A stretch of DNA of 62,266 nt from Candidatus Kapaibacterium sp. (GCA_025059875.1 JANXCT010000006.1:1-62266); one strand, 5' to 3'; numbered from the stretch's first letter, positions 49,624 to 62,266 are shown. Numbers and translations are program-made. Notes: generated by a model not told the origin, from the letters alone.

Positions 49624-51915
49624 ATGGAAGTGGAACTCCCAAGGAACCTGGCTGAGGCTATTGCAGAGGACACCGATGACATCCAAGTGACAACTGCCGA
49701 AGACGGCTCCGTCCGAGTCAGCACCACCATCAACGGCCGCCCCTACGAGATAGAGACTGGGCTCTACGCCTCACAGGCTGATGCTGCTGTTATGGTCCGG
49801 CATGGGGACACGATGGTGCTGGTAACGGTCTGCAGCGCTGACCAGCCTCTGTCGGCTGTTGATTTCCTACCGCTGACGGTGGACTACCGAGAGAAATCCT
49901 CCGCTGCAGGCAAGATCCCAGGAAGCTTCCATCGCCGCGAAGGGCGGCCGACCGACAAGGAAATCCTCTCAGCCCGCCTCATTGACCGCTCCTGCCGCCC
50001 TCTCTTCCCAAAGCAGTGGCGCTACGAGACCCAAATCATGGCTACGGTCTTCTCGTACGACCGGGAGATCGATGGCGATACGCTTGGGGCAACAGGGGCA
50101 TCAGCAGCTCTACTGCTCTCCTCTATTCCTTTTGCCGGCCCTATCTCGCAGGTCCGCATCGGGCGGGTGGACGGGGAATTCATCGTTAACCCCACCCTGA
50201 GCCAACTGGAGGCCTCTGACATGGACATCGTCGTTGCTGGCACCGATAGCTCGATTGTGATGGTCGAAGGTAGTGCCAAGGAGATCTCTGAAGCAGACTT
50301 CATAGCAGCCCTGGAAGCTGCCCAAGAGCCTATTCGCCGGTTGAATGCATTACAGCGCCGATTAGCTACTCTGCGAGGACAACCGAAGCGTGAGCTCCCT
50401 CCTGAGCTCATCCCAGAAGAGCTTCGAAGTTTCATTGCCGGACTTGTGGAATCAGAGATCCAAAGCTTCATTCGCCAAACCACAACGAAGGAGCAGCGCT
50501 CCGCGTGGCGGAAGGAATTGCGGGAGCGCATCCTGACAGCAGTTGCCGAAGTCGCTGCGGCTGACCATCCGGAGTGGCAGTCGCTTCCGTTGGAACCCCT
50601 CGTCAATGCGGTACTCACGGAGCTCGAACGCCACGAAGTACGGCAGATGATCCTCACCGAGGGACGCCGCCTGGATGGCCGTACCCCGAACCAGATCCGT
50701 CCTATCCTCTGCCGGGCTGGGGTCCTCCCTAGAACACACGGCTCTGCCTTCTTCATGCGGGGGGAGACCCAGAGCTTAGCCAGCGTGACCTTAGGCACCA
50801 AAGGGGACGAACTCATCATCGATGGGCTGCTACCGACGTATACGCGCCGCTTCATGTTCCACTACAACTTCCCACCCTACAGCACTGGTGAGATCCGGCG
50901 TCCTGGTCCTCCATCGCGTCGCGAGGTAGGGCATGGCAACTTAGCTGAGCGGGCGTTGGAACCCTTGCTGCCCTCGGAAGAGCAGTTTCCCTACACCATA
51001 CGGGTGGTCTCCGACATCCTCTCCTCCAACGGCTCCTCCTCCATGGCTAGCGTCTGCGCTGGTAGCTTAGCGCTCTTCGATGCTGGGGTCCCGATGAAGC
51101 GAGCTGCCGCTGGCATCGCCATGGGGCTCATCGTTGAAGGAGACCGAGTTGCGATCCTCTCCGACATCTTGGGCGATGAAGACCATCTGGGCGACATGGA
51201 CTTCAAAGTTGCCGGCACCGCTGTCGGCATCACCTCGTGCCAGATGGACATTAAGATCGAGGGCCTCTCGCTGGAGCTTATGGTCCGGGCTCTGGAACAG
51301 GCCCGTCAAGCCCGGTTGGAGATCCTGGAGATCATGAACCGGGAGCTTCCCCAACCTCGCCCGCAGCTCTCCCCATATGCTCCGCGGCTGATGATGCTTA
51401 CCATCCCTGTAGAGACAATCGGGCTCGTCATCGGTCCTGGTGGGGAGACCATCCGGCGGATCGTGCAAGAGACTGGAGCAGAAATCAACATTGAGCAGGA
51501 CGGGCGCGTCATCATCGCTGCCCCGTCAGAGGAAGCGCTGCAGAAAGCAGCTGCTTACATCCAGGGGCTGACGCAACAGCCGGAAGTTGGTCAAGTCTAC
51601 TCCGGCATCGTCCGGGAAATCCGTGAGGGCCTGGGGGCGATTGTAGAGTTCCTCCCACGCCGACTGGGACTACTCCACATCTCGCAGATCGACTACCGCC
51701 CCTTCAACACCATCTCGGAAGTGCTCAAAGTCGGTGATGTAATCGACGTGAAGCTCATCGAGATCCAGCCAGACGGGAAGTTCCGGCTGAGCCGTAAAGC
51801 CTTACTTCCTCCTCAGCAACACCACGGACGTGGTAGACCTGAACAGCCAAGGCGGAGTAACGGCGGTGAACGGCGCCACGGCGGCAGTCCGCCCCACGGC
51901 CGACCGCGATTCTGA
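49624..51915 (+). CDS. pnp: Polynucleotide phosphorylase
   Basis: 3'-5' phosphorolytic exoribonuclease, trimer. 763 residues. First RNase PH domain ([22 protein letters not shown]), helical linker, second RNase PH domain ([41 protein letters not shown]), KH domain ([26 protein letters not shown]), S1 domain ([23 protein letters not shown]) and a basic Gly/Arg/His tail. Last gene of the operon; ends 4 nt from the convergent response regulator. Confidence 0.97.
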
Positions 51916-51919
51916 GAGA

Positions 51920-52327
51920 CTACGCCACACTCTGGAGCCGCTGCTCTACAATCTGCTGCACTTCGTATGCGAAGGTGGTTGTACTGAGGGGCTTGACGAT
52001 GTAGGCGTCGAACCCCTGCTGAAGGTAACGCTGCCGGTCGCTCTCTTGGGTCAACCCCGTGACAGCAATAACAGGAATATCCCACCCATTCGGCAAGGAG
52101 CGCACAGCCTTGACGATCTCCACTCCATGCCCGTCGGGCAAAATGAGATCGCTGAGCACGACTACCGGTCTGTGCTGCGCTAACCACTGTAAGGCTTCCC
52201 CGATTCGACCGAATGCGACAACAAGGAAGCCAGCCTTCGTCAGCAGGACCTCAATGAGCTTCCGTGTCGGAGGGCTATCCTCAACGACGCAGGCTAGTGG
52301 AGGCTGTCCCATCCTCCGGTAGCCCAC
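51920..52327 (-). CDS. Single-domain response regulator (CheY-like)
   Basis: 135 residues, receiver domain only. Acidic pair E16/D17 (VVEDS), phospho-acceptor D60 (VLSDLILPDG), T90 (AVTG) and K112 (IVKPLS) are all present, so it should be phosphorylatable. No output domain. The GTG start at 52327 shares one base with the TAG stop of the OmpA-family gene (TAGTG); the ATG at 52312 has GGAGG directly against it. No histidine kinase is encoded in the window. Last gene of the surface-protein operon. Confidence 0.88.
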   Translation of the reverse strand: MGYRRMGQPPLACVVEDSPPTRKLIEVLLTKAGFLVVAFGRIGEALQWLAQHRPVVVLSDLILPDGHGVEIVKAVRSLPNGWDIPVIAVTGLTQESDRQRYLQQGFDAYIVKPLSTTTFAYEVQQIVEQRLQSVA

Positions 52328-53655
52328 TATTCTACAACGATGATCTCAACACGCCGATTCCGGAGTCGCCCTTCCGGAGTCCGGTTATCGGCGATCGGCT
52401 GGCGCGCCCCGACACCCGATGCCAGCAGCCGGGAGCGGCTAATACCGCGACGTGCTAGGTACTCCACCACCTGTTGGGCCCGTTGTTCTGAGATCCTCTG
52501 CGTCTCCTCCAAGGAGCCGCCGAACTCTTCCGTATGGCCGACGATGCGCACTTCAGCCTGAGGTCGTGCGCGGAGGTAGTCTACCAGTGCATCTAAGTAG
52601 CGCTGCAGCTCTGCCGTAAGCCCAGTAGCTGTTGGGCTTGGGTAGCTGAAGCGTTGGACTCGATTCGGGACGATTGTGACCGGCTGGGCCGGACGGGGTG
52701 GTGCCGCTTCGGGAGCAGGCTCCACGGATGGCCTCTCAGGGCCGGGGAGGAACTCTCCCTCCAGTTCTTCCTCAGGTGTTGACCCCGGAAGTTCCACTCC
52801 CGGCTCTACTGGCACTCGAGCAGCAATGAACGGCACCGCTGTATCAAGCGGTAGTACGCGCTCCTGTATGCGCTCCCAACCGAGCTTAAAGCTCACCCCG
52901 GCTCGTATGGCCACAGGGGTCCACGTAGACCCCCATGTCCGCTGCAGCGGCAGCCCTGTCTGGAAGAGGACCACTGGGGTAACGTAGTTCCGCAAGTTCT
53001 CCCCGAAGAGCGCCACAAAGATGTCCAATCCCACGCCGACGTGGACACCCAACCACAGCGGCAGGGGCTGCTCATCAAAGAGCCGCCACTCCTCAATCCG
53101 CTCCACGTTCTGGAGCGACTGCCGCACCCGCTCCCTCGCGCTCCAGAGGAAGCGTGCATCAGTTCCAACGATGAAATGCAAACCCTCCCAGAAGGTCCCC
53201 CGCCACCATCCCGGCGCATAGCGGGCAGAAGCAGAAAGCAGGAGAGAGCGTACTTGAAGCTCTAGCTCATACTGCTGTCTCACGCCACTAGCTACTGGCT
53301 CAAATTGCGCACTCCCTCGCCATACCTCCCACGGCAAGAGGAGGAGCGATGCCCCCCACCGCTCCCCTGGCGGATTCCACTCGCCTTGAATCCAGAAGCC
53401 CGTTCCAGCTCCTAACCCCCGGCGGAACTCCAGGAGCCCGCGATGTGGAGCATCGGGTACCCGCGGCAGATTCAATCGCCCGAGGTACCCAATCCCAACA
53501 GTGCCAATCCCTACCCCAATCCACCACTCCCCCGGACGTCGCTCTCGCACGAGGGTGTCTCCGCTTGGCAGCAGCCACCGCTCGGCAACAGTCCACTCTG
53601 GGGCTTGCGCCCAGAGGGTCAGAACGCTCAGTCCGATGAGTCCCCAGCGCCACAT
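52327..53655 (-). CDS. OmpA-family outer-membrane protein
   Basis: 442 residues. Signal peptide MWRWGLIGLSVLTLWAQA, an N-terminal beta-barrel-like part (about 20-270), a Pro/Glu-rich linker (about 275-325: VPVEPGVELPGSTPEEELEG), then an OmpA peptidoglycan-binding domain ending NRTPEGRLRNRRVEIIVVE. Anchors outer membrane to cell wall. The ATG overlaps the TGA of the T9SS-cargo gene by one base and its stop overlaps the response regulator start. Confidence 0.9.
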   Translation of the reverse strand: MWRWGLIGLSVLTLWAQAPEWTVAERWLLPSGDTLVRERRPGEWWIGVGIGTVGIGYLGRLNLPRVPDAPHRGLLEFRRGLGAGTGFWIQGEWNPPGERWGASLLLLPWEVWRGSAQFEPVASGVRQQYELELQVRSLLLSASARYAPGWWRGTFWEGLHFIVGTDARFLWSARERVRQSLQNVERIEEWRLFDEQPLPLWLGVHVGVGLDIFVALFGENLRNYVTPVVLFQTGLPLQRTWGSTWTPVAIRAGVSFKLGWERIQERVLPLDTAVPFIAARVPVEPGVELPGSTPEEELEGEFLPGPERPSVEPAPEAAPPRPAQPVTIVPNRVQRFSYPSPTATGLTAELQRYLDALVDYLRARPQAEVRIVGHTEEFGGSLEETQRISEQRAQQVVEYLARRGISRSRLLASGVGARQPIADNRTPEGRLRNRRVEIIVVE

Positions 53656-54887
53656 CAGTGGACCAACTGTGCTTTGATGATTGCCCGAGAGAGCTCCACT
53701 GAGGGGTCATCTACTGGGTAGGCAATGAGCACGATGTCGTAGAGACCTTGTGAAGCATACGCCGGGGTCTGCCACTCCAGCGTATAGCTCCCCCGCTCCA
53801 TCTCCTGCCGCTCCATGAGTCGAGCCACCACTCCACCCCTGACGTCGTACACCGTGATACTCAGCAGGACGCGGTCCTCCAGGCGGTAGCGGATAGTGGT
53901 CGCGTTAGAGAACGGGTTTGGGTCCGCTTGGGCAAAGCTGATGACTGCGTGCGGGATGGTTGCGCATGCCCGCCCGTGGTAGCGGAGCACTCCGTGGAAG
54001 TCTGTGCTCCATAGGTCGTAGCAGTACTCCTCACCCCGCTGCTTCGCAGCGTCGGAGTCTACGTAGAGGTAGCTACGTCCCGTGTCACTGGTCCCCAGAC
54101 CACGCAAGAGAGGGACGCGCTGCCAGTCAGCAACGAGGGCGGAGTCTACAAGCTCCGTCGTGTTGAAGGGACGCCACCAGCGCACCAACACGAAGCCGCG
54201 GTTGAAGGCCTCGCTCTGTGTCTGCCAACTCAAGCGCACCTTGCGGTCGCCAATGTACTCAGCCCGGAAATCCCTCACCACATGGGCGGGAACGCGCATC
54301 GGTTGGAGGCGATACTCGACCCGGGTCCCCAGTTCCACGTTGTCGTTTGCCCGCACCCACGGTAGGACCTCATCCCGCTGCTTGTATGCAAATGCTTGGT
54401 AGTAGGCCAGCGGCTGAGCCCATTCCAGAGTGTGCGGGACGGGCGTACCGTTCGTGGAGAACACCTGGAGCCGGGCTATTCGCATCAGGGTATCCCAAGG
54501 GATGAGCTGAGAGGCCTCAAAGCTCTCCGGTCCGTAGACCGTCACTCCCAACCGCGGGCGCGTCCATGCCGTCGCGCCCGGCACTGGCTGCTGGAGCACG
54601 AACGGCTCTATCCGGTAGAACGTTGTGTCAACGGAGCTACTCCCTGGGACGACCCGTACCCGAAGCTGTGGCCACGGAGCCGTATCGGGAAGAACGAATG
54701 TCAGCGTCGCATTCGCCCATCGCTCCCACTGCAGCGTACGGCGCTGAAGGAACACGTCTACCTCCAACGTATCGGGTACCACTTGAGGGCGCACCACAGC
54801 CGTTACTACTGTCCCAGCGGACTGCGCCCATGCTGCCACAGCGCTGAGCAGCAGAAGAGCCCACCGGAAGCCATGCCTGCACTGCAT
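53655..54887 (-). CDS. Secreted protein with T9SS type A sorting domain
   Basis: 410 residues. Signal peptide MQCRHGFRWALLLLSAVAAWAQ. C-terminal about 85 residues match the Por secretion (T9SS type A) sorting domain: DPNPFSNATTIRYRLEDRVL, ITVYDVRGGVVARLMERQEM, GSYTLEWQ, ASQGLYDIVLIAY. An FN3-like domain precedes it (RKVRLSWQTQSEAFNRGFVLVRW). Predicted to cross the outer membrane through the T9SS and be attached to the surface. ATG overlaps the upstream TGA by one base. Confidence 0.9.
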   Translation of the reverse strand: MQCRHGFRWALLLLSAVAAWAQSAGTVVTAVVRPQVVPDTLEVDVFLQRRTLQWERWANATLTFVLPDTAPWPQLRVRVVPGSSSVDTTFYRIEPFVLQQPVPGATAWTRPRLGVTVYGPESFEASQLIPWDTLMRIARLQVFSTNGTPVPHTLEWAQPLAYYQAFAYKQRDEVLPWVRANDNVELGTRVEYRLQPMRVPAHVVRDFRAEYIGDRKVRLSWQTQSEAFNRGFVLVRWWRPFNTTELVDSALVADWQRVPLLRGLGTSDTGRSYLYVDSDAAKQRGEEYCYDLWSTDFHGVLRYHGRACATIPHAVISFAQADPNPFSNATTIRYRLEDRVLLSITVYDVRGGVVARLMERQEMERGSYTLEWQTPAYASQGLYDIVLIAYPVDDPSVELSRAIIKAQLVH

Positions 54888-56926
54888 CAGCGCACCACGA
54901 CCGTGTTCCGATCCCGATTGTTCCAGCCTACGTTGAAGTCGCGGGTTGTCACGATGCCGCTCAAGTCCGTATCAGCATTAACGTAACCTTCCGCATGCTG
55001 CCAGAGCTGTAGCAGCTGAAGGTCCTCTGCATCTACTCGCCCGTCGCCATTGACGTCCCCACTAATCATTGCCCAGACTGTGCGCCCGTTGTACCGCAGC
55101 GCCCGCAACGCCCCAGCCCCGCCCAAGATGCGCGATGGGTCCTCAGTCATTGCCAGTACTTGCTGCTGCGTCTCCGGTGCAATCTCCACTGGCTCCGCCG
55201 TAATGATGGCGAGATGGTTGCGGTGGTGGATCGCTACGTAGTACGCTCCGCTCTCTATCCCAGGGAGCGTGATGGGGCTCTTGCCGTCCAGGTCAACGAC
55301 TCTACCATCACGCCGAACGAAAGCTGTTCGGTAGTAGCGTGCCCCGCCGGTCAGCAGCGTCCGCAACTCCACCACTACCCAGTCTACCACGGAATCCGGC
55401 AGAGGGCTGACGCGGATGTACGGCCGCATGGGGTCCAAGTTGTAGGGGTAGATGTCCGGCGGCGTCTCTGGCAGCCAGCCGCGCTGGCGGAGGTCGTCTA
55501 CCATCGAGCCATTCCGATAGGGCCCCTCCAGGATGGCCGCAACCTGGAGGCGCAGGTTTCGGGCATTGTCGCGGAGCCCAATGGCGAAATCTCCCCCGCC
55601 GTAGACCCCGTCAGCATAGGCATAAGCCCAGCTGGCAGCGGTATCGAGCTGCGGCGGGACTGAGCGCCCTGCAGCAAACCATCCGTCTCGTGTCCAGCGA
55701 TGCAAGATGAGCGCCGGCAGCGGCAGACCCCGCGTCTCGTCCCGGTTCGGATCCCCGGGCAGGTGTCGCCAGCCGTAACCGACGCGCCAGTTCAGACCCT
55801 GTGACACCGTCTGTCCAGCAGCATCTTGAGCTGTTATCTGAAGCACCCGCCACACCTTCTGCTGGCTCTGCGGATGCCACGGCTGTGTCTGCGGCAGGAC
55901 CCGAATCTGGACCTGAGCGACTGAACCCCACCCCTGGTCCGTACGGACATACGTGTACGGGTTGTTGAAGACGACAGGCTCACCGTCCGTTCGGAGCCGC
56001 GTTCGCCGTATCGTACCGATGATCTCAGCATCTGGGTGGAGGAAGACCGGATCCTTCCGCTCCGCAGTGTACGTCAAGACATACCGGTGTGCCGTATCTA
56101 GCTCAGTCCAGAGTGGCGCCTGCAGCACCAGGCTATCATTGACAGTTACGGATGACTGCAGCACCACACCGCTGTCGTTCTCCACATAGAGCGCCCGAAG
56201 ACTGAGGCTATCGTGCGGCAGTTCTGGACCGCTGAAGATTCGTCCCCGACCGACGTACCGCACAGCAATGTCCCGCCCAAAGATCGGCGCAGCTGCTAGT
56301 TCTCCTTCAGCCGTGCGTACGATCGTCGCTGAATCTGCCAATCGGAAGTTATCAGCTGCACTATTCCGTAGCAGACCTCGCTTCAGCTCCAGCACCGTAG
56401 AGACCGTAAAACCACCGCCACGGCGCACATTGGCACCGGCAGGGTTGTCCAGCTCTAGCTCCCGGAAGAGCCCCCGCCCCCATAGATCCTGTGCCTGCTG
56501 CCCCTGGAGGACGATCCGCCCGTAGAGGTGTGCTGGGTTGATGATTCCTCGATGCACCGTCTCCCCACAGCTCAAGATCAGCGCCCGCTGGAGTTGCCGG
56601 AAGACCGTGCCGGAGTCCGTCTCGAACCGGCGTAGCGCAACGAGCGGCCGGGTCGTATCCAGGAGCATCTTCTGCGTTCGCCCGGTGAAGCGTACATCCT
56701 CGTAGACCTTGTGCGGTATGTACTGGTTGACTCCGTCCCGGTCCCAGGCGAAGACAACGGTGCCCCCTAGTGTGTCCTGCCGCACTCTGGCGTTGCCCTT
56801 GATGACAATCGTGCCACGATTGTAAATCACCCCCTCGCTCTGCAACTGTCCCAGGAGCTCAGCCGCCGAAAGCGCCAGGGCTATTGTCATCCAGAGCACA
56901 GAACGCCACGCCGCCATCGTCCCCAC
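54887..56926 (-). CDS. Large secreted protein with dockerin-like C-terminus
   Basis: 679 residues. Signal peptide after MGTMAAWRSVLWMTIALALSA; ATG at 56917 is an alternative start. N-terminus EGVIYNRGTIVIKGNARV echoes the NxGTxxVxGN motif of the next two upstream surface genes. Beta-rich middle with several domain-like blocks. Near the C-terminus a dockerin-type calcium motif: SGDVNGDGRVDAEDLQLLQL and NADTDLSGIVTTRDFNVGWN, the form common in Bacteroidota surface proteins. Ends NTVVVR without a typical type A sorting domain. First gene of a four-gene coupled operon. Confidence 0.85.
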   Translation of the reverse strand: MGTMAAWRSVLWMTIALALSAAELLGQLQSEGVIYNRGTIVIKGNARVRQDTLGGTVVFAWDRDGVNQYIPHKVYEDVRFTGRTQKMLLDTTRPLVALRRFETDSGTVFRQLQRALILSCGETVHRGIINPAHLYGRIVLQGQQAQDLWGRGLFRELELDNPAGANVRRGGGFTVSTVLELKRGLLRNSAADNFRLADSATIVRTAEGELAAAPIFGRDIAVRYVGRGRIFSGPELPHDSLSLRALYVENDSGVVLQSSVTVNDSLVLQAPLWTELDTAHRYVLTYTAERKDPVFLHPDAEIIGTIRRTRLRTDGEPVVFNNPYTYVRTDQGWGSVAQVQIRVLPQTQPWHPQSQQKVWRVLQITAQDAAGQTVSQGLNWRVGYGWRHLPGDPNRDETRGLPLPALILHRWTRDGWFAAGRSVPPQLDTAASWAYAYADGVYGGGDFAIGLRDNARNLRLQVAAILEGPYRNGSMVDDLRQRGWLPETPPDIYPYNLDPMRPYIRVSPLPDSVVDWVVVELRTLLTGGARYYRTAFVRRDGRVVDLDGKSPITLPGIESGAYYVAIHHRNHLAIITAEPVEIAPETQQQVLAMTEDPSRILGGAGALRALRYNGRTVWAMISGDVNGDGRVDAEDLQLLQLWQHAEGYVNADTDLSGIVTTRDFNVGWNNRDRNTVVVR

Positions 56927-57042: not shown

Positions 57043-59250
57043 TTACTGACCCACCTCAATCGTACCGAAGTTGTGGATTGTCGCACCCACATCGTTCGTC
57101 AAACCGCCTGGGATTTGGAGCGTCACCTCATTCCCGTCCGTTGCGTAGACCACCAAGCCGGCATCTATCGGCTGGTTCCCTATGTCTGGCGTGCCGGAAG
57201 AGATTGTGGCTTGCCCAGCACGGTAGTTGACCAGCACACCCGGCGGCGTGGCCGAGCTATTCAACGAGAAGGTCCGAGACCCCGAGGTAGACCCGAACAG
57301 CAACGCACTGTTGAGTTGGTTGCCAATCGTTATCCTCGCCGCAAGCTGCGTGGGATAGGCTTCTGCAACGCTGTAGTTGTCAATTGCACGAACGTAGCCG
57401 ACGTGGACCGTGAAGCCGTTGATCACGACCTCATCTGTTGGCGAGGGCTCTTGTCCCTCATCCCACGTTGCCGGGTTCGACCAGCGACCACTTCGGATTG
57501 CATAGAATACCGTGGGGCCACCGCGGAGCAGCAGGTCGTTCCCAGAAGCAATCCGGTCGAAGCCGTTCGGTAAGGCGCCCGTTGTTCCCCGGATGCCTAC
57601 CAGCTGTATGTATCCCAAATCGGACCCTGAGGCAGCCTGCCGAGTGTAGGCGTTTCCTGTAGATACCTTCTCAACCGCCGAGCTCGATGCCTCGTAGAAG
57701 CGCAGGTTGCCCTGGTTTACGTTCGCCGCCCATGTATTCGGGATGTCGCTCTGCTTGTAGCCGACACGGAAGGTAGCTGTCCAGTCGTTGCTACCACTCC
57801 AGCTTACCGTCACCTTCCGATTGACGTCACGAGTGTTGTCGTACTGGTTCGGGTTCGTCTGTGGGAAGGCAGCGATCGTCATCGTCGAAGGCAGCGTACC
57901 AGCAGTAAAGGTTACCCGCGTCTCGGCATTGTTGAAGACATACGCCGTCCCACTCTGCGTTATAGCCCTCTGCATAGCTCCAACAATCTCGGAGTTAGCA
58001 CCAGCGCCACTGTAGGTCACCGTAGCGTTGCCGTCCGTCATGATCCATGTCTGGCCAGCGGCAACCGTGATGTTTTCGCTCTGCACCGTGAGATTCCCGG
58101 ACATGTAGACGCTACCACCTGTCTCAGTCTGCTTCGTGCCGCCAGCCGTCTCTATGTTACCGAAGGGCCTCGTATCGGCAGTGTACGGGATAACCTGCCC
58201 GTTCGCCGTTGCCGTGAACCGGAGCGTCGAGGCATCATCAAACGTCCAGTTGGTACGGGCGGCGAAGTTGTTCTGTAGGACTCCTGCGACGTCGAGGGTA
58301 GTACCGGCATCCAACTGGAGCTGGGCATCCGAAGAGTTCGCCAGTGAGAGCGTTGCTCCGCCCTGGATCGTCGCAGTCCCGCCAGCGACACGGAATAGAC
58401 CTGCTGTGACATTCACATTCGCTGCATACGTCGCCGTTCCCGTAGTCCGCAGCTCAGCAAAGGTGCTCCCAGGAGTTGGGTCGTGGATCGTAATTGGACC
58501 ATCTGCTGTCACGTCGTTGGCAAAGAGCTGGCCCCGCAGGAGCAGCGTCGTATTCGCTGCACTGGAGAAATTGCCCAGGAGACTGATAGACTGATTGTCT
58601 GCGATTGTCTTCGTGCTGGACCCCAAAGCGCATGACCACGAACCAGTGGCAATCGCCAAGTTGTTGTAACGGTTGACACTTCCTGCAACGGCCGTCTCAG
58701 GAAAGATCGTCTGATCTGACGTCCCGTCGTAGTAGAACGTCCCCGTATACGTGCGAGCACCGCTGCCAGAGACCACGTTGTAGGTCCCCGAGACATACAC
58801 TCTGTCGGGGATCGCCTTCGCGCTCGCTCCCGCCATCTCCAAGTTGGTGTAGAACCGCGGCTGCACGTTCTGCTGCGTCAGCGGATTCGGGTTCGTGTAC
58901 CGCATGTTGCCAGGCACTCGGAAGCCGCAAGCATGACCAAGTGCCGGAGCGTTGTTCTCGTTACCGCCTAGGTCTGTAAAGAGGTTGTTCGTCCCCTGGA
59001 ACTCAAACCAACCGTTGTTGACAATGTCTGCCAGATTAAAGTTCCCATTCTGAAACTGCCCTGTGTTTGAGGTGAACCGGATTGTGGCCGTGGCGACAGC
59101 GTTGTTAATCCTCCCAGTGGACTGATTGATGAGGTTCCCTTTGACGACGAACGTGCCGTAGTTGTTCAGTACACCGGAATTGGTAAAGTCCTGTGCCACC
59201 GCGACTACCCCCGCCACTAGGGAGAGCAGCAGAGAGAGAACACCCTTCAT
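57043..59250 (-). CDS. Large secreted beta-repeat protein
   Basis: 735 residues from ATG 59250 (MKGVLSLLLSLVAGVVAVAQ signal peptide; GGGAG 5 nt upstream). Gly/Asn/Thr/Ala-rich and low in Lys; many short beta segments such as SGVLNNYGTFVVKGNLINQSTG, GNLTVQSENITVAAGQTWIM and GATLSLANSSDAQLQLDAG suggest a beta-helix or autotransporter-like passenger. Conserved WSNPATWDEGQEPSPTDEVVI is a phrase seen in T9SS-associated surface proteins. It ends GATIHNFGTIEVGQ with no sorting domain. A 116-nt gap separates it from the downstream gene. Likely surface structural protein. Confidence 0.85.
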   Translation of the reverse strand: MKGVLSLLLSLVAGVVAVAQDFTNSGVLNNYGTFVVKGNLINQSTGRINNAVATATIRFTSNTGQFQNGNFNLADIVNNGWFEFQGTNNLFTDLGGNENNAPALGHACGFRVPGNMRYTNPNPLTQQNVQPRFYTNLEMAGASAKAIPDRVYVSGTYNVVSGSGARTYTGTFYYDGTSDQTIFPETAVAGSVNRYNNLAIATGSWSCALGSSTKTIADNQSISLLGNFSSAANTTLLLRGQLFANDVTADGPITIHDPTPGSTFAELRTTGTATYAANVNVTAGLFRVAGGTATIQGGATLSLANSSDAQLQLDAGTTLDVAGVLQNNFAARTNWTFDDASTLRFTATANGQVIPYTADTRPFGNIETAGGTKQTETGGSVYMSGNLTVQSENITVAAGQTWIMTDGNATVTYSGAGANSEIVGAMQRAITQSGTAYVFNNAETRVTFTAGTLPSTMTIAAFPQTNPNQYDNTRDVNRKVTVSWSGSNDWTATFRVGYKQSDIPNTWAANVNQGNLRFYEASSSAVEKVSTGNAYTRQAASGSDLGYIQLVGIRGTTGALPNGFDRIASGNDLLLRGGPTVFYAIRSGRWSNPATWDEGQEPSPTDEVVINGFTVHVGYVRAIDNYSVAEAYPTQLAARITIGNQLNSALLFGSTSGSRTFSLNSSATPPGVLVNYRAGQATISSGTPDIGNQPIDAGLVVYATDGNEVTLQIPGGLTNDVGATIHNFGTIEVGQ

Positions 59251-59395
59251 GAGGACTCCCGACGAAAGGTTGGACAAACTCACCGTTGGTTGTCGTCTAC
59301 GCTGCATTGCTCGCCGACTTTGTTAGTTCAACATGACACCGCTGTAGCGTACTGTTTCCAGCTACAAAATTCGGGCCCCGCAAGAGGTAGTAGTA

Positions 59396-59411
59396 TCCGT
59401 AAAACTACGGA
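59396..59411. repeat. Hairpin TCCGTA-AAAC-TACGGA over stop codon, copy A
   Basis: A perfect 6-bp stem with 4-nt loop includes the TAG stop of the small beta-repeat gene. The identical 16-mer occurs at 60217 in the decayed copy. It could act as a weak terminator; no clean T run follows. Confidence 0.6.
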
Positions 59412-59812
59412 GGTCCCACCTCCACGGTGCCGGTGTTGTTGATCGTGCCGTGGTTCGTCAGATTACCCTGAACCTGCAGGCTCCCTGTCCCCCCACGGTC
59501 AACAGTCGCCCCAGAGTGGATGGTCATATTCTGCGTCACCTGCATGAGTGCCGTATCCTGGAGCTGGATGTTCCCGCTTTGGACCGTCACACTCCCCGCA
59601 ACCCTGAGCGTTGCCCCGTCGTACGCTTGAATAGAAGCTGCACCCCCCTGCTGGAGCACATCCCCATTCACAACCACCATGACACCTTCCCGCAGCGTTA
59701 CCTGGGCACCATTGTTCGTTAGCAACTGGGCCCTGCCGGTAAGGCAGAGCAGCACAAATCCCCCTACCAGCCCCAGCCACCCTATGCATCGCTGCCTACA
59801 GACCACACGCAT
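59405..59812 (-). CDS. Small secreted beta-repeat protein
   Basis: 135 residues from ATG 59812 (MRVVCRQRCIGWLGLVGG signal peptide); GTG at 59824 is an alternative start. The mature part is almost pure short beta repeats (ATLRVAGSVTVQSGNIQLQD, ALMQVTQNMTIHSGATVDRGG, SLQVQGNLTNHGTINNTG). Its end, NTGTVEVGPP, resembles the end of the larger neighbour (NFGTIEVGQ). No Cys in the mature part. A decayed second copy lies upstream at 60217. Function unknown; probably surface or periplasmic. Confidence 0.7.
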   Translation of the reverse strand: MRVVCRQRCIGWLGLVGGFVLLCLTGRAQLLTNNGAQVTLREGVMVVVNGDVLQQGGAASIQAYDGATLRVAGSVTVQSGNIQLQDTALMQVTQNMTIHSGATVDRGGTGSLQVQGNLTNHGTINNTGTVEVGPP

Positions 59813-59844
59813 CACTGCCCACACCTTTTACCAACAAACTGCCG

Positions 59845-60232: not shown

Positions 60233-60644
60233 GGTCCTACCCCCACGGTCCAGTGCTGCTGACCGTGCTGGAGTCCGCTAGATTCCCTCGGACCTGCAGG
60301 CCTCCTGCACCTCCCGTTGGTTCAGCGCGGGGATCACACCCTGCACCACTTACCTACACGAATGCTATACCCCGGAGCAGAATGCCGCCATTCTGGGACT
60401 GCTACTCCCCAACAGCATTGCCCCTGGGAGTCTAGACACTAAGACAACAGCTGCTCTCTCCTCCAGAGCATACCCCCATTCCCAACTGCTACCCACCCTC
60501 TCCGCAGCGCGTCACTAGAGCATCGTTAGCAAGGGGGCTCTGCCCGAGAGGCAAATCAGTACGACCTACCCCCACCACCTCAAAATCCGTCTATCGCCGC
60601 CTGCAGAGCCCCCGCCTGCAGATTCCCTCACCAACAAGCTACCG
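60217..60644 (-). pseudogene. Decayed copy of the small beta-repeat gene
   Basis: Minus-strand DNA aligns with the intact gene at 59396-59844 end to end. Both ends match best: the 3' end shares TCCGTAAAACTACGGAGGTC and an in-frame VGVGPP-stop corresponding to VEVGPP; the middle keeps GCAGAGCCCCCTTGCTAACG against GCAGGGCCCAGTTGCTAACG; the 5' side shares GCRGCGAT and the boundary CGGYAGYTTGTTGG (59831-59844 and 60631-60644). Indels and stops destroy the frame and the ATG/signal peptide is unrecognisable. The 5' boundary overlaps the stop of the S74 fibre gene. Confidence 0.7.
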
Positions 60645-62266
60645 AGGCAGGTCCTCAGAAAACCTCCGCTCTAGCAGTTGCTGCACAAGCTCCCGAAGTT
60701 GGCGGAGCTCTTCACGAGCTTGCTGGAGCTCCTGGCGTAGCACCATGTTCTCCTGCTCCAATTCCGTCAAGCGGTCTGCCAATGGGGATAGTGCGGCAGT
60801 CCCCTGCTGCTCTTCCAGCACATCTACTCTCTCCGCCAACGCCTTAATCCCCAACAGCGCCACCCCCGCCACGTCTGAGGCCGCCAACGACGTCCGCGCA
60901 TCCGAGCTGTTCAACACCCCCGTCCCAAACGCCTCATGGAAGTCCTCCGCATACGGCCCGATGTGGTACTCGTCGGTCCCCTTGTAGTACCACCCCTCCA
61001 CGGGCAACTGCCGAATCTTCGCCAACACCTCCTGCGGGTCCAACTTCACAAACCGGTCCTTCTTGTCCCGCGAGGAAGCGTTCGTCCACGTACCACCTGC
61101 CGACAAATACGCCCCGTTGCCGTTGGTGTTGTTGGTCCCCACGTGGATCGGATAGTCCCCGTCCAACCGGTTGATAACCAGGAAGCCAGAGGGATTGGCA
61201 TTAGCTCCCGTACCACTCCCATCGCCGAAGAAGTACACTCGGTGGGTTTCCGTGACGGCGGGGTCGACATTCTGCCCATAGACCATCACGTAGTTCGCAT
61301 TTGCCGTGTTCGAGGACCCTCCCACCACGACGCTATACTGACCACTAGCGACGTTAAACGAGCCCCCGCTAACGACACTGCCATAGCCAGTAGCAGAGTT
61401 CTGCTGGCCCCCACTGACGGTACTATAATCAGCGCTGGCGGTGTTCCAATAGCCTCCACTAACAGTGCTCGCTAAGGCGCTGGCAGTGTTATTCTGGCCA
61501 CCACCAATAGTGCTAATATTGCCGCTGGCAACTTGAGTAGGCGCTGTGCGAACTACCTGCAAGTCTACTGCATAGAGGCCACGCTGATTTCCCCCTGCAT
61601 CCCGTTGTAGGCTCCAGGCCGGCGCTATATTACCTGGCGGATTCAAAATCAATGAAGTTTGGCCGTTGACTCGCAGCTCTAACCGATTGTTGTCTAGCGT
61701 CCCGACAAATGCCGCCGCCCCCGCCCGCAGCCCAATGTTGCCCGCTACCTCCAACCGCTCAGCCGGATCCGTGGTCCCAATCCCAAGGAACCCATCACTC
61801 CCCCTCAGCCACATCCTTGACGTGAAACCACTCCCATCCCACGTCCGCCACAGGAACCCGGAGGATGCGGTGTTGTTGACAGCAAATCTCATAACAGTAG
61901 TAAACCCAGCGACTTCGATGTTCGTAATGTCAAAATTGGTAGCGTCCACATCTATAAACTTGTTGTACATGTTTGGTAGAAAATTGATCTCCACACCGCT
62001 GCCGTTGCTGTTGAAATTCAGTAGCGCCGGCGGACTTGATCCGAAACGACTTGTGCCTATCCAGATGGGGCCCCGGACGTCGAGGACTGTGAGCGGATCC
62101 GTGGTCCCGATGCCTACGTTCCCTGTGCTCGATATTCGCATCCTTTCGGTGTTGTTCGTCCTGAAGACCAACGGCTGATTGTCCGCCGTCCCCAAAAAAT
62201 TCGTCGCCGGGTTTGTTCCACTGTTGCCGGTTAGACTCCAGGCGTTCCCGCTCACCAGAGAGCTGG
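60639..62266 (-). CDS. Fibre-like surface protein with S74 chaperone domain, 5' truncated
   Basis: At least 542 residues; the frame is open to the right window edge (the GTG at 62255 is internal), so the N-terminus is missing. Two GIGTTDP-LxV units (TVLDVRG, AERLEVAG) are typical of tail-fibre-like proteins. Five exact-length 15-residue repeats of S-T-V-S-G-G-x-x-N-x-A (61290-61514) resemble YadA/Hep_Hag head repeats. A peptidase S74 intramolecular chaperone follows: NASSRDKKDRFVKLDPQEVL with the Ser/Lys needed for self-cleavage, and HIGPYAEDFHEAFGTG. A C-terminal heptad coiled coil (RLTELEQENMVLRQELQQAR) should trimerise it. Likely a trimeric surface fibre; no phage genes are nearby. Confidence 0.88.
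   Translation of the reverse strand, partial: SSLVSGNAWSLTGNSGTNPATNFLGTADNQPLVFRTNNTERMRISSTGNVGIGTTDPLTVLDVRGPIWIGTSRFGSSPPALLNFNSNGSGVEINFLPNMYNKFIDVDATNFDITNIEVAGFTTVMRFAVNNTASSGFLWRTWDGSGFTSRMWLRGSDGFLGIGTTDPAERLEVAGNIGLRAGAAAFVGTLDNNRLELRVNGQTSLILNPPGNIAPAWSLQRDAGGNQRGLYAVDLQVVRTAPTQVASGNISTIGGGQNNTASALASTVSGGYWNTASADYSTVSGGQQNSATGYGSVVSGGSFNVASGQYSVVVGGSSNTANANYVMVYGQNVDPAVTETHRVYFFGDGSGTGANANPSGFLVINRLDGDYPIHVGTNNTNGNGAYLSAGGTWTNASSRDKKDRFVKLDPQEVLAKIRQLPVEGWYYKGTDEYHIGPYAEDFHEAFGTGVLNSSDARTSLAASDVAGVALLGIKALAERVDVLEEQQGTAALSPLADRLTELEQENMVLRQELQQAREELRQLRELVQQLLERRFSEDLPR
61290..61514 (-). repeat. Five 45-bp (15-residue) YadA-head-like repeats
   Basis: Successive units STIGGGQNNTASALA, STVSGGYWNTASADY, STVSGGQQNSATGYG, SVVSGGSFNVASGQY and SVVVGGSSNTANANY are each 15 residues with invariant Ser1, Gly6 and Asn9. 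They would form a left-handed parallel beta-roll in a trimer. Confidence 0.85.

Follow-up and report, generated by a model that had tools for sequence, protein, structure and literature searches.

The question raised by this locus is why a gene for a lone response-regulator receiver should close a run of genes for surface proteins. The stretch of DNA analysed (the window; 62,266 nucleotides) is a whole contig (JANXCT010000006.1) of the 1.97-Mb genome of a Candidatus Kapaibacterium sp. (GCA_025059875.1), and carries at positions 51,920 to 56,926 four co-directional genes, here termed dock, cargo, the OmpA protein and the receiver. An earlier note had taken the tight junctions of these genes as a sign of a dedicated signalling or assembly circuit; such a circuit is plausible, and a partner gene for the receiver, here termed C5, was found by synteny; the argument from strict overlap has to be given up (see below). 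The best explanation, with a probability of about 0.5 on the sequence comparisons described here, is a surface-protein operon with an attached receiver and an ATPase-less sensor, C5, that would dock onto, read or dephosphorylate this receiver.

Relatives in the form of Candidatus Kapabacteria/Kapaibacterium metagenome-assembled genomes (60 genomes; e.g. HRbin21) were searched with the receiver, cargo and dock proteins, the matching loci were fetched, and the families were labelled f1 to f10. The block extends past position 56,926, with three more co-directional surface-protein genes upstream (up1, up2 and up3), whose order is also conserved; the gene order up3-up2-up1-dock-cargo-OmpA, whole or partial, spans families f1 to f10 of one Bacteroidota order (Candidatus Kapabacteria). 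Apart from the window, the OmpA gene is followed by the receiver gene in 50 fetched loci; C5 directly follows the receiver gene in 52 loci and the OmpA gene in 11. The receiver adjoins OmpA on its downstream side in four families (f1, f3, f6 and f9) and many genera. In one genome (G016), the OmpA-receiver-C5 trio is located on a different contig from dock and cargo, hence these three genes travel together.

The conservation is real, and the four genes are no chance neighbourhood. The earlier note would have abandoned its proposal if the receiver were not conserved beside these genes in any relative; it is conserved at the 50 loci, and the receivers belong to a single clade. Chance adjacency with meaningless overlaps, for which it can be said that 1-nt and 4-nt overlaps are common in the window, is therefore hardly credible, and was rejected on the order-wide conserved adjacency and the single receiver clade.

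The receiver (Pfam Response_reg, E-value 5.9e-20, covering residues 13-118 of 135) is a single-domain response regulator, with one receiver domain and no output domain. All phosphorylation residues are present, as had been claimed (D17, D60, T90 and K112, numbered from the GTG start), and are essentially invariant among relatives; E/D, D, D, T/S and K, together with a conserved Phe, were kept in 58/58 receivers examined. In a tree of 102 receiver domains, the OmpA- or C5-linked receivers and the stand-alone receivers of f7 form one group (Shimodaira-Hasegawa-like approximate likelihood ratio test, SH-aLRT, 99) apart from 37 others, and the window receiver falls among its own genus; the inner branches of this tree are weak because of the few columns available. 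The closest solved structures to the receiver include DivK.

The synteny partner C5 is a protein of about 730 amino acids (aa) with the domain order CHASE-PAS-HisKA; its gene comes immediately after the receiver gene or, at loci that lack the receiver, immediately after the OmpA gene. The CHASE, PAS and HisKA domains were detected in 11/11 scanned members, and HATPase_c in none of these 11 (Pfam, E-values up to 1); the alignment also contains no conserved nucleotide-binding N/G boxes. On these two grounds C5 was rejected as a conventional cognate kinase. Nor do receiver and C5 make up a canonical two-component system, given the missing HATPase_c and a phospho-acceptor His that is replaced in many lineages. 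A literature search for degenerate kinases bearing a CHASE domain was without result.

In an order-wide scan of 123 genomes, C5 was found in 77 and the receiver family in 67; by a comparison of the two genome lists, every one of the 59 genomes whose receiver match was strong (>145 bits) also has C5. A phylum-wide scan, which scored no more than the top few candidates of each genome, found C5 only within the order. All six genomes of the window's genus carry C5 as a single copy that is unlinked from the operon. The absence of an adjacent kinase, as described earlier, holds for the window and is a peculiarity of its genus; C5 is linked in most relatives. This absence is explained by an unlinked partner, C5, that is predicted to be ATPase-less. 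The earlier note had suggested a search for the cognate kinase by co-occurrence; the partner to which synteny led is by sequence no working kinase.

The C5 phospho-acceptor site was compared between 57 C5 rows with a receiver in the genome (including the window genome, G000, with its receiver in the window, and G005, whose contig ends inside ompA) and 15 rows without. In the receiver-present rows, the site is occupied by His (41 rows), Phe (13), Tyr (2) or Glu (1); the following position (H+1) is acidic in just 2/57 rows, position H+3 is Arg in 57/57, and position H+4 is Asn or Thr in 56/57 (R-N/T motif). The receiver-absent rows have Arg, Asp, Thr, Phe or a displaced His at the site and scattered residues at H+4, and the R-N/T motif is lost in 14 of the 15 rows and kept in one. 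The His is kept in most members of f3 and f9; an aromatic residue in its place, as in DivL, is found in the window's genus (Phe) and in f8, f10, g49 and part of g22 (Phe/Tyr). On a C5 tree built with the motif columns excluded, the receiver was lost at least four times independently, and the R-N/T motif changes with the receiver in about 3/4 of the independent pairs and never in the opposite way.

In HisKA proteins, an acidic residue at H+1 is needed for kinase activity, and Thr or Asn at H+4 for phosphatase activity (Willett and Kirby, PMC3510030). The phosphatases CrdS, HK853 and EnvZ resemble C5 in the retained H+4 Asn/Thr (PMC3510030), and differ from it in being bifunctional kinases with an acidic H+1 and an ATPase domain. 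The residue pattern of C5 thus suggests that selection has preserved a contact with the receiver, perhaps in a phosphatase role, and has not preserved kinase chemistry.

From the gene order, the co-occurrence, the intact receiver active site, the missing HATPase_c, and the R-N/T motif kept with the receiver, all of which are read directly from the genomes, we infer each functional arrow of the following mechanism. A conserved Kapabacteria surface-protein operon would have gained a signalling pair, i.e. a phosphorylatable receiver and the membrane sensor C5. An extracytoplasmic signal would reach C5 at its CHASE domain, and the C5 HisKA bundle would dock onto the receiver and then either remove its phosphate or read its phosphorylation state; the phosphate itself would be supplied by another kinase or by a small phosphodonor. 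As the receiver has no output domain, the phosphorylated form is proposed to act by protein contact, adjusting the export, assembly or amount of the co-encoded surface proteins. Such contact, through which the window receiver probably influences export or assembly at the surface, has a precedent in EpsW, a Myxococcus single-domain receiver that acts on the envelope enzyme EpsZ by direct contact (PMC12802240). EpsW is likewise an output-less receiver acting on an envelope biosynthesis step; however, its target is a phosphoglycosyl transferase and its kinase is chemosensory.

The flow of information might also run the other way, from the receiver to C5: C5 would sense the phosphorylated receiver, leave its phosphorylation unchanged, and signal to another kinase or to a neighbouring SpoIIE-type phosphatase. 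The model for this is DivL of Caulobacter, which reads DivK~P without kinase activity (PMC4211667). In both systems a single-domain receiver is matched by a PAS-bearing membrane protein with an aromatic residue replacing the phospho-acceptor His (Tyr in DivL; Phe/Tyr in several receiver-keeping C5 lineages), and among the PDB matches to the C5 HisKA region DivL ranks second, with RetS also one of the closest solved structures. A gene for a GAF-SpoIIE-type phosphatase follows C5 in f5, f8 and f10 (L201:6220-8406, L205:12726-14882 and L206:7950-10058), which hints at a link to partner-switching signalling; this neighbour is absent in the examined loci of f1, f3, f4, f6 and f9. Furthermore, the conservation of Asn/Thr at H+4 is better explained by phosphatase chemistry than by binding alone, although this residue may also have a role in docking. 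C5 also differs from DivL in its CHASE sensor, in the lack of a recognisable ATPase domain, and in being co-encoded with OmpA and surface proteins, and no CckA-type client is known for C5. We consider this DivL-like direction possible, if tentative.

Several observations weigh against the preferred reading, i.e. the attached receiver with an ATPase-less C5. The operon is present without the receiver in f2 and f5, hence the surface proteins can do without it, and the receiver-C5 pair is placed away from the operon in f8 and f10. The co-loss comparison comprises only four independent pairs and cannot reach p 0.05. In the window genome itself, C5 is unlinked (G000:C1:266864-268741), has Phe in place of the phospho-acceptor His, and is split near its C-terminus into two overlapping frames (L195:9667-11757 and L195:11637-12041; G000:C1, approximately 266.7-269.0 kb), unlike the whole C5 of the genus relatives; the split is either a real break or an assembly error. 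Finally, a structure model of C5 (three near-identical rows) with a predicted local distance difference test score (pLDDT) of 34.5 was too poor for use.

The distribution of the pair also bears on a simpler explanation, in which receiver and C5 are a general signalling pair that merely shares a transcription unit with the surface genes and does not act on them. The operons without the pair (f2, f5), the pairs away from the operon (f8, f10), and the stand-alone receivers of the same clade in f7, which occur without C5, are as expected for such a passenger. This explanation is nevertheless unlikely in view of the OmpA-receiver(-C5) adjacency over four families and many genera, which survives rearrangement (G016), and of the loci in f4 and g48 where the receiver is gone and C5 still directly follows OmpA. 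The unlinked C5 of the window's genus precedes a gene for a 710-aa protein with two OmpA-domain matches (L195:12051-14183), thus even away from the operon C5 has an OmpA-type protein as its neighbour.

For the preferred reading, the lack of the ATP-using part in C5 suggests that the surface is tuned by an unusual reader or eraser of phosphate and not by an ordinary kinase. In its widest form, this reading would describe an order-wide module in which an ATPase-less (in several lineages also His-less) sensor acts on an output-less receiver solely through removal or reading of its phosphate, with the receiver governing the assembly or export of a co-encoded, OmpA-anchored surface structure; this wider form is speculative, and we think it unlikely. 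Pseudo-histidine kinases are, to our knowledge, known from few systems, of which DivL is the best studied. The C5 family, with loss of the ATPase domain in every examined member and a receiver-facing motif kept where the receiver is kept, offers a natural set of cases in which to ask what the scaffold of a histidine kinase is used for once kinase chemistry is gone, and an uncultivated order gains a candidate link between signalling and the outer surface, with the partner gene named.

The junctions between the four genes were compared in six genomes of the window's genus, including the window; in one of these (G005), the contig stops inside ompA. When read from the first possible start, each of the four open reading frames in the window shares one base with the next, as described before, and this arrangement varies within the genus: a start at -1 was found in 5/6 genomes for dock/cargo and in 4/6 for cargo/OmpA. 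Base-sharing between OmpA and receiver was limited to the window (TAGTG) and G001, and G001 has an additional ATG at -4. The likely receiver ATG in G002, G003 and G004 is located 10-16 nt downstream. The receiver frame of the window has an ATG as its sixth codon, 14 nt beyond the OmpA stop, and homology sets in only after this ATG; the GTG start is therefore doubtful, and the receiver more likely comprises 130 aa from the ATG at 52312. Of the co-directional gene pairs in the window, 4/32 have an in-frame start at -1 and 4/32 at -4, i.e. such junctions are ordinary in the window and are no evidence for a circuit; in the relatives, the receiver and C5 genes are close and overlaps are rare. On both counts, the ordinary frequency of such junctions and their lack of conservation at the receiver, strict overlap coupling was rejected as evidence for a circuit.

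The features of the block are summarized in Table 1.

Table 1. Surface-protein block with attached receiver gene; positions are counted from the first nucleotide of the window
Feature	Position	Strand	Length (aa)	Predicted product and basis
receiver	51920-52327	minus	135 (from GTG)	single-domain response regulator (Pfam Response_reg)
OmpA protein	52327-53655	minus	442	predicted outer-membrane barrel with OmpA C-terminal domain (Pfam)
cargo	53655-54887	minus	410	conserved surface protein; T9SS-sorting-like C-terminal domain (weak)
dock	54887-56926	minus	679	surface protein; weak dockerin/EF-hand-like C-terminus (Dockerin_1 weak)
up1	57043-59307	minus	754	surface protein directly upstream of dock; synteny and profile match to dock
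up2	59405-59824	minus	139	secreted protein; synteny (f1, f2, f4, f9, f3 in part)
up3	60639-62264	minus		surface protein, partial at contig end; Peptidase_S74 chaperone tail; synteny

The names given earlier to the four genes are clear for the OmpA protein and the receiver, and weak, with matches below cut-off, for the dockerin and for the sorting tail of the type IX secretion system (T9SS). For dock, the Dockerin_1 match in the window protein has an E-value of 0.0016, and 5/13 family members match (best E-value in a relative 1.8e-05). Full-length dock was found only inside the order among 345 phylum genomes, and its C-terminal 220 aa (window 54887-55600) represent a dispersed module that recurs in many large, unrelated proteins across the class and phylum. 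The up1 protein is a distant paralogue of dock (profile-profile probability 97.9); a single marginal PDB match of the up1 profile, to a phage cement protein (E-value 0.021), is not believed. The Peptidase_S74 match of up3 has an E-value of 6.7e-06 (Pfam).

For cargo, Por_Secre_tail/TIGR04183 was tested, and Por_Secre_tail matches the window protein with an E-value of 0.02 and, weakly, 8/17 family members (best E-value 0.00036); the best match of cargo holds the same operon position in most relatives, and its profile yielded no sequence match in the PDB, PorA included. The T9SS translocon protein SprA is encoded in the window genome (over cut-off, 931.6 bits in total), hence export of the surface proteins by a T9SS is plausible, though the sorting tail of cargo is weak.

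The presence of SprA also brings in a control of the T9SS motor in the manner of PorX, in which the receiver would act on the secretion motor or on gene expression, and cargo would be an outside sensor like PorA. In P. gingivalis, PorA, a surface protein bearing a C-terminal domain (CTD), relays a surface signal to PorXY (PMC7712824), and PorX binds PorL (PMC5005315); the Kapabacteria block resembles this arrangement in linking a receiver to putative T9SS surface proteins, among them cargo with its weak sorting-like C-terminal domain. However, PorX carries an additional, PglZ-type domain and PorY works as a kinase, whereas the Kapabacteria receiver has no PglZ or any other second domain, its partner C5 has no ATPase domain and is by sequence not a kinase, and the 410-aa cargo has no sequence match to PorA. 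PorXY and the window genes are not orthologues as far as tested, and such motor control is quite improbable.

The OmpA protein (Pfam OmpA, E-value 5.4e-17) was modelled with AlphaFold2 (pLDDT 71.5, predicted template modelling score 0.48) as approximately eight long strands (residues 34-268), a disordered linker (272-332), and a C-terminal OmpA peptidoglycan-binding domain (333-442). Its Foldseek matches in the PDB are OmpA-type C-terminal domains, PorE among them; for the predicted barrel, Foldseek gave no clear homologue by fold.

The block is modified in several families. In f3, a gene for a WD40-repeat protein with a T9SS-like tail is usually located between cargo and OmpA (L155:13401-15281 and equivalents), and in f7, up1 and dock are mostly fused to a protein of approximately 1450 aa (L121, L126, L133, L143 and L144). 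A NarL/LuxR-type DNA-binding response regulator heads the operon in f4, f8 and f10 (L114:18498-19208, L104:14626-15285 and L116:3509-4171), and these regulators form one group on the receiver tree; that different families attach different receivers to the same block speaks more for regulation of the block as such than for any particular mechanism. In the window, the receiver gene is convergent with the gene for PNPase, and 4 nt separate their stop codons (51915-51920).

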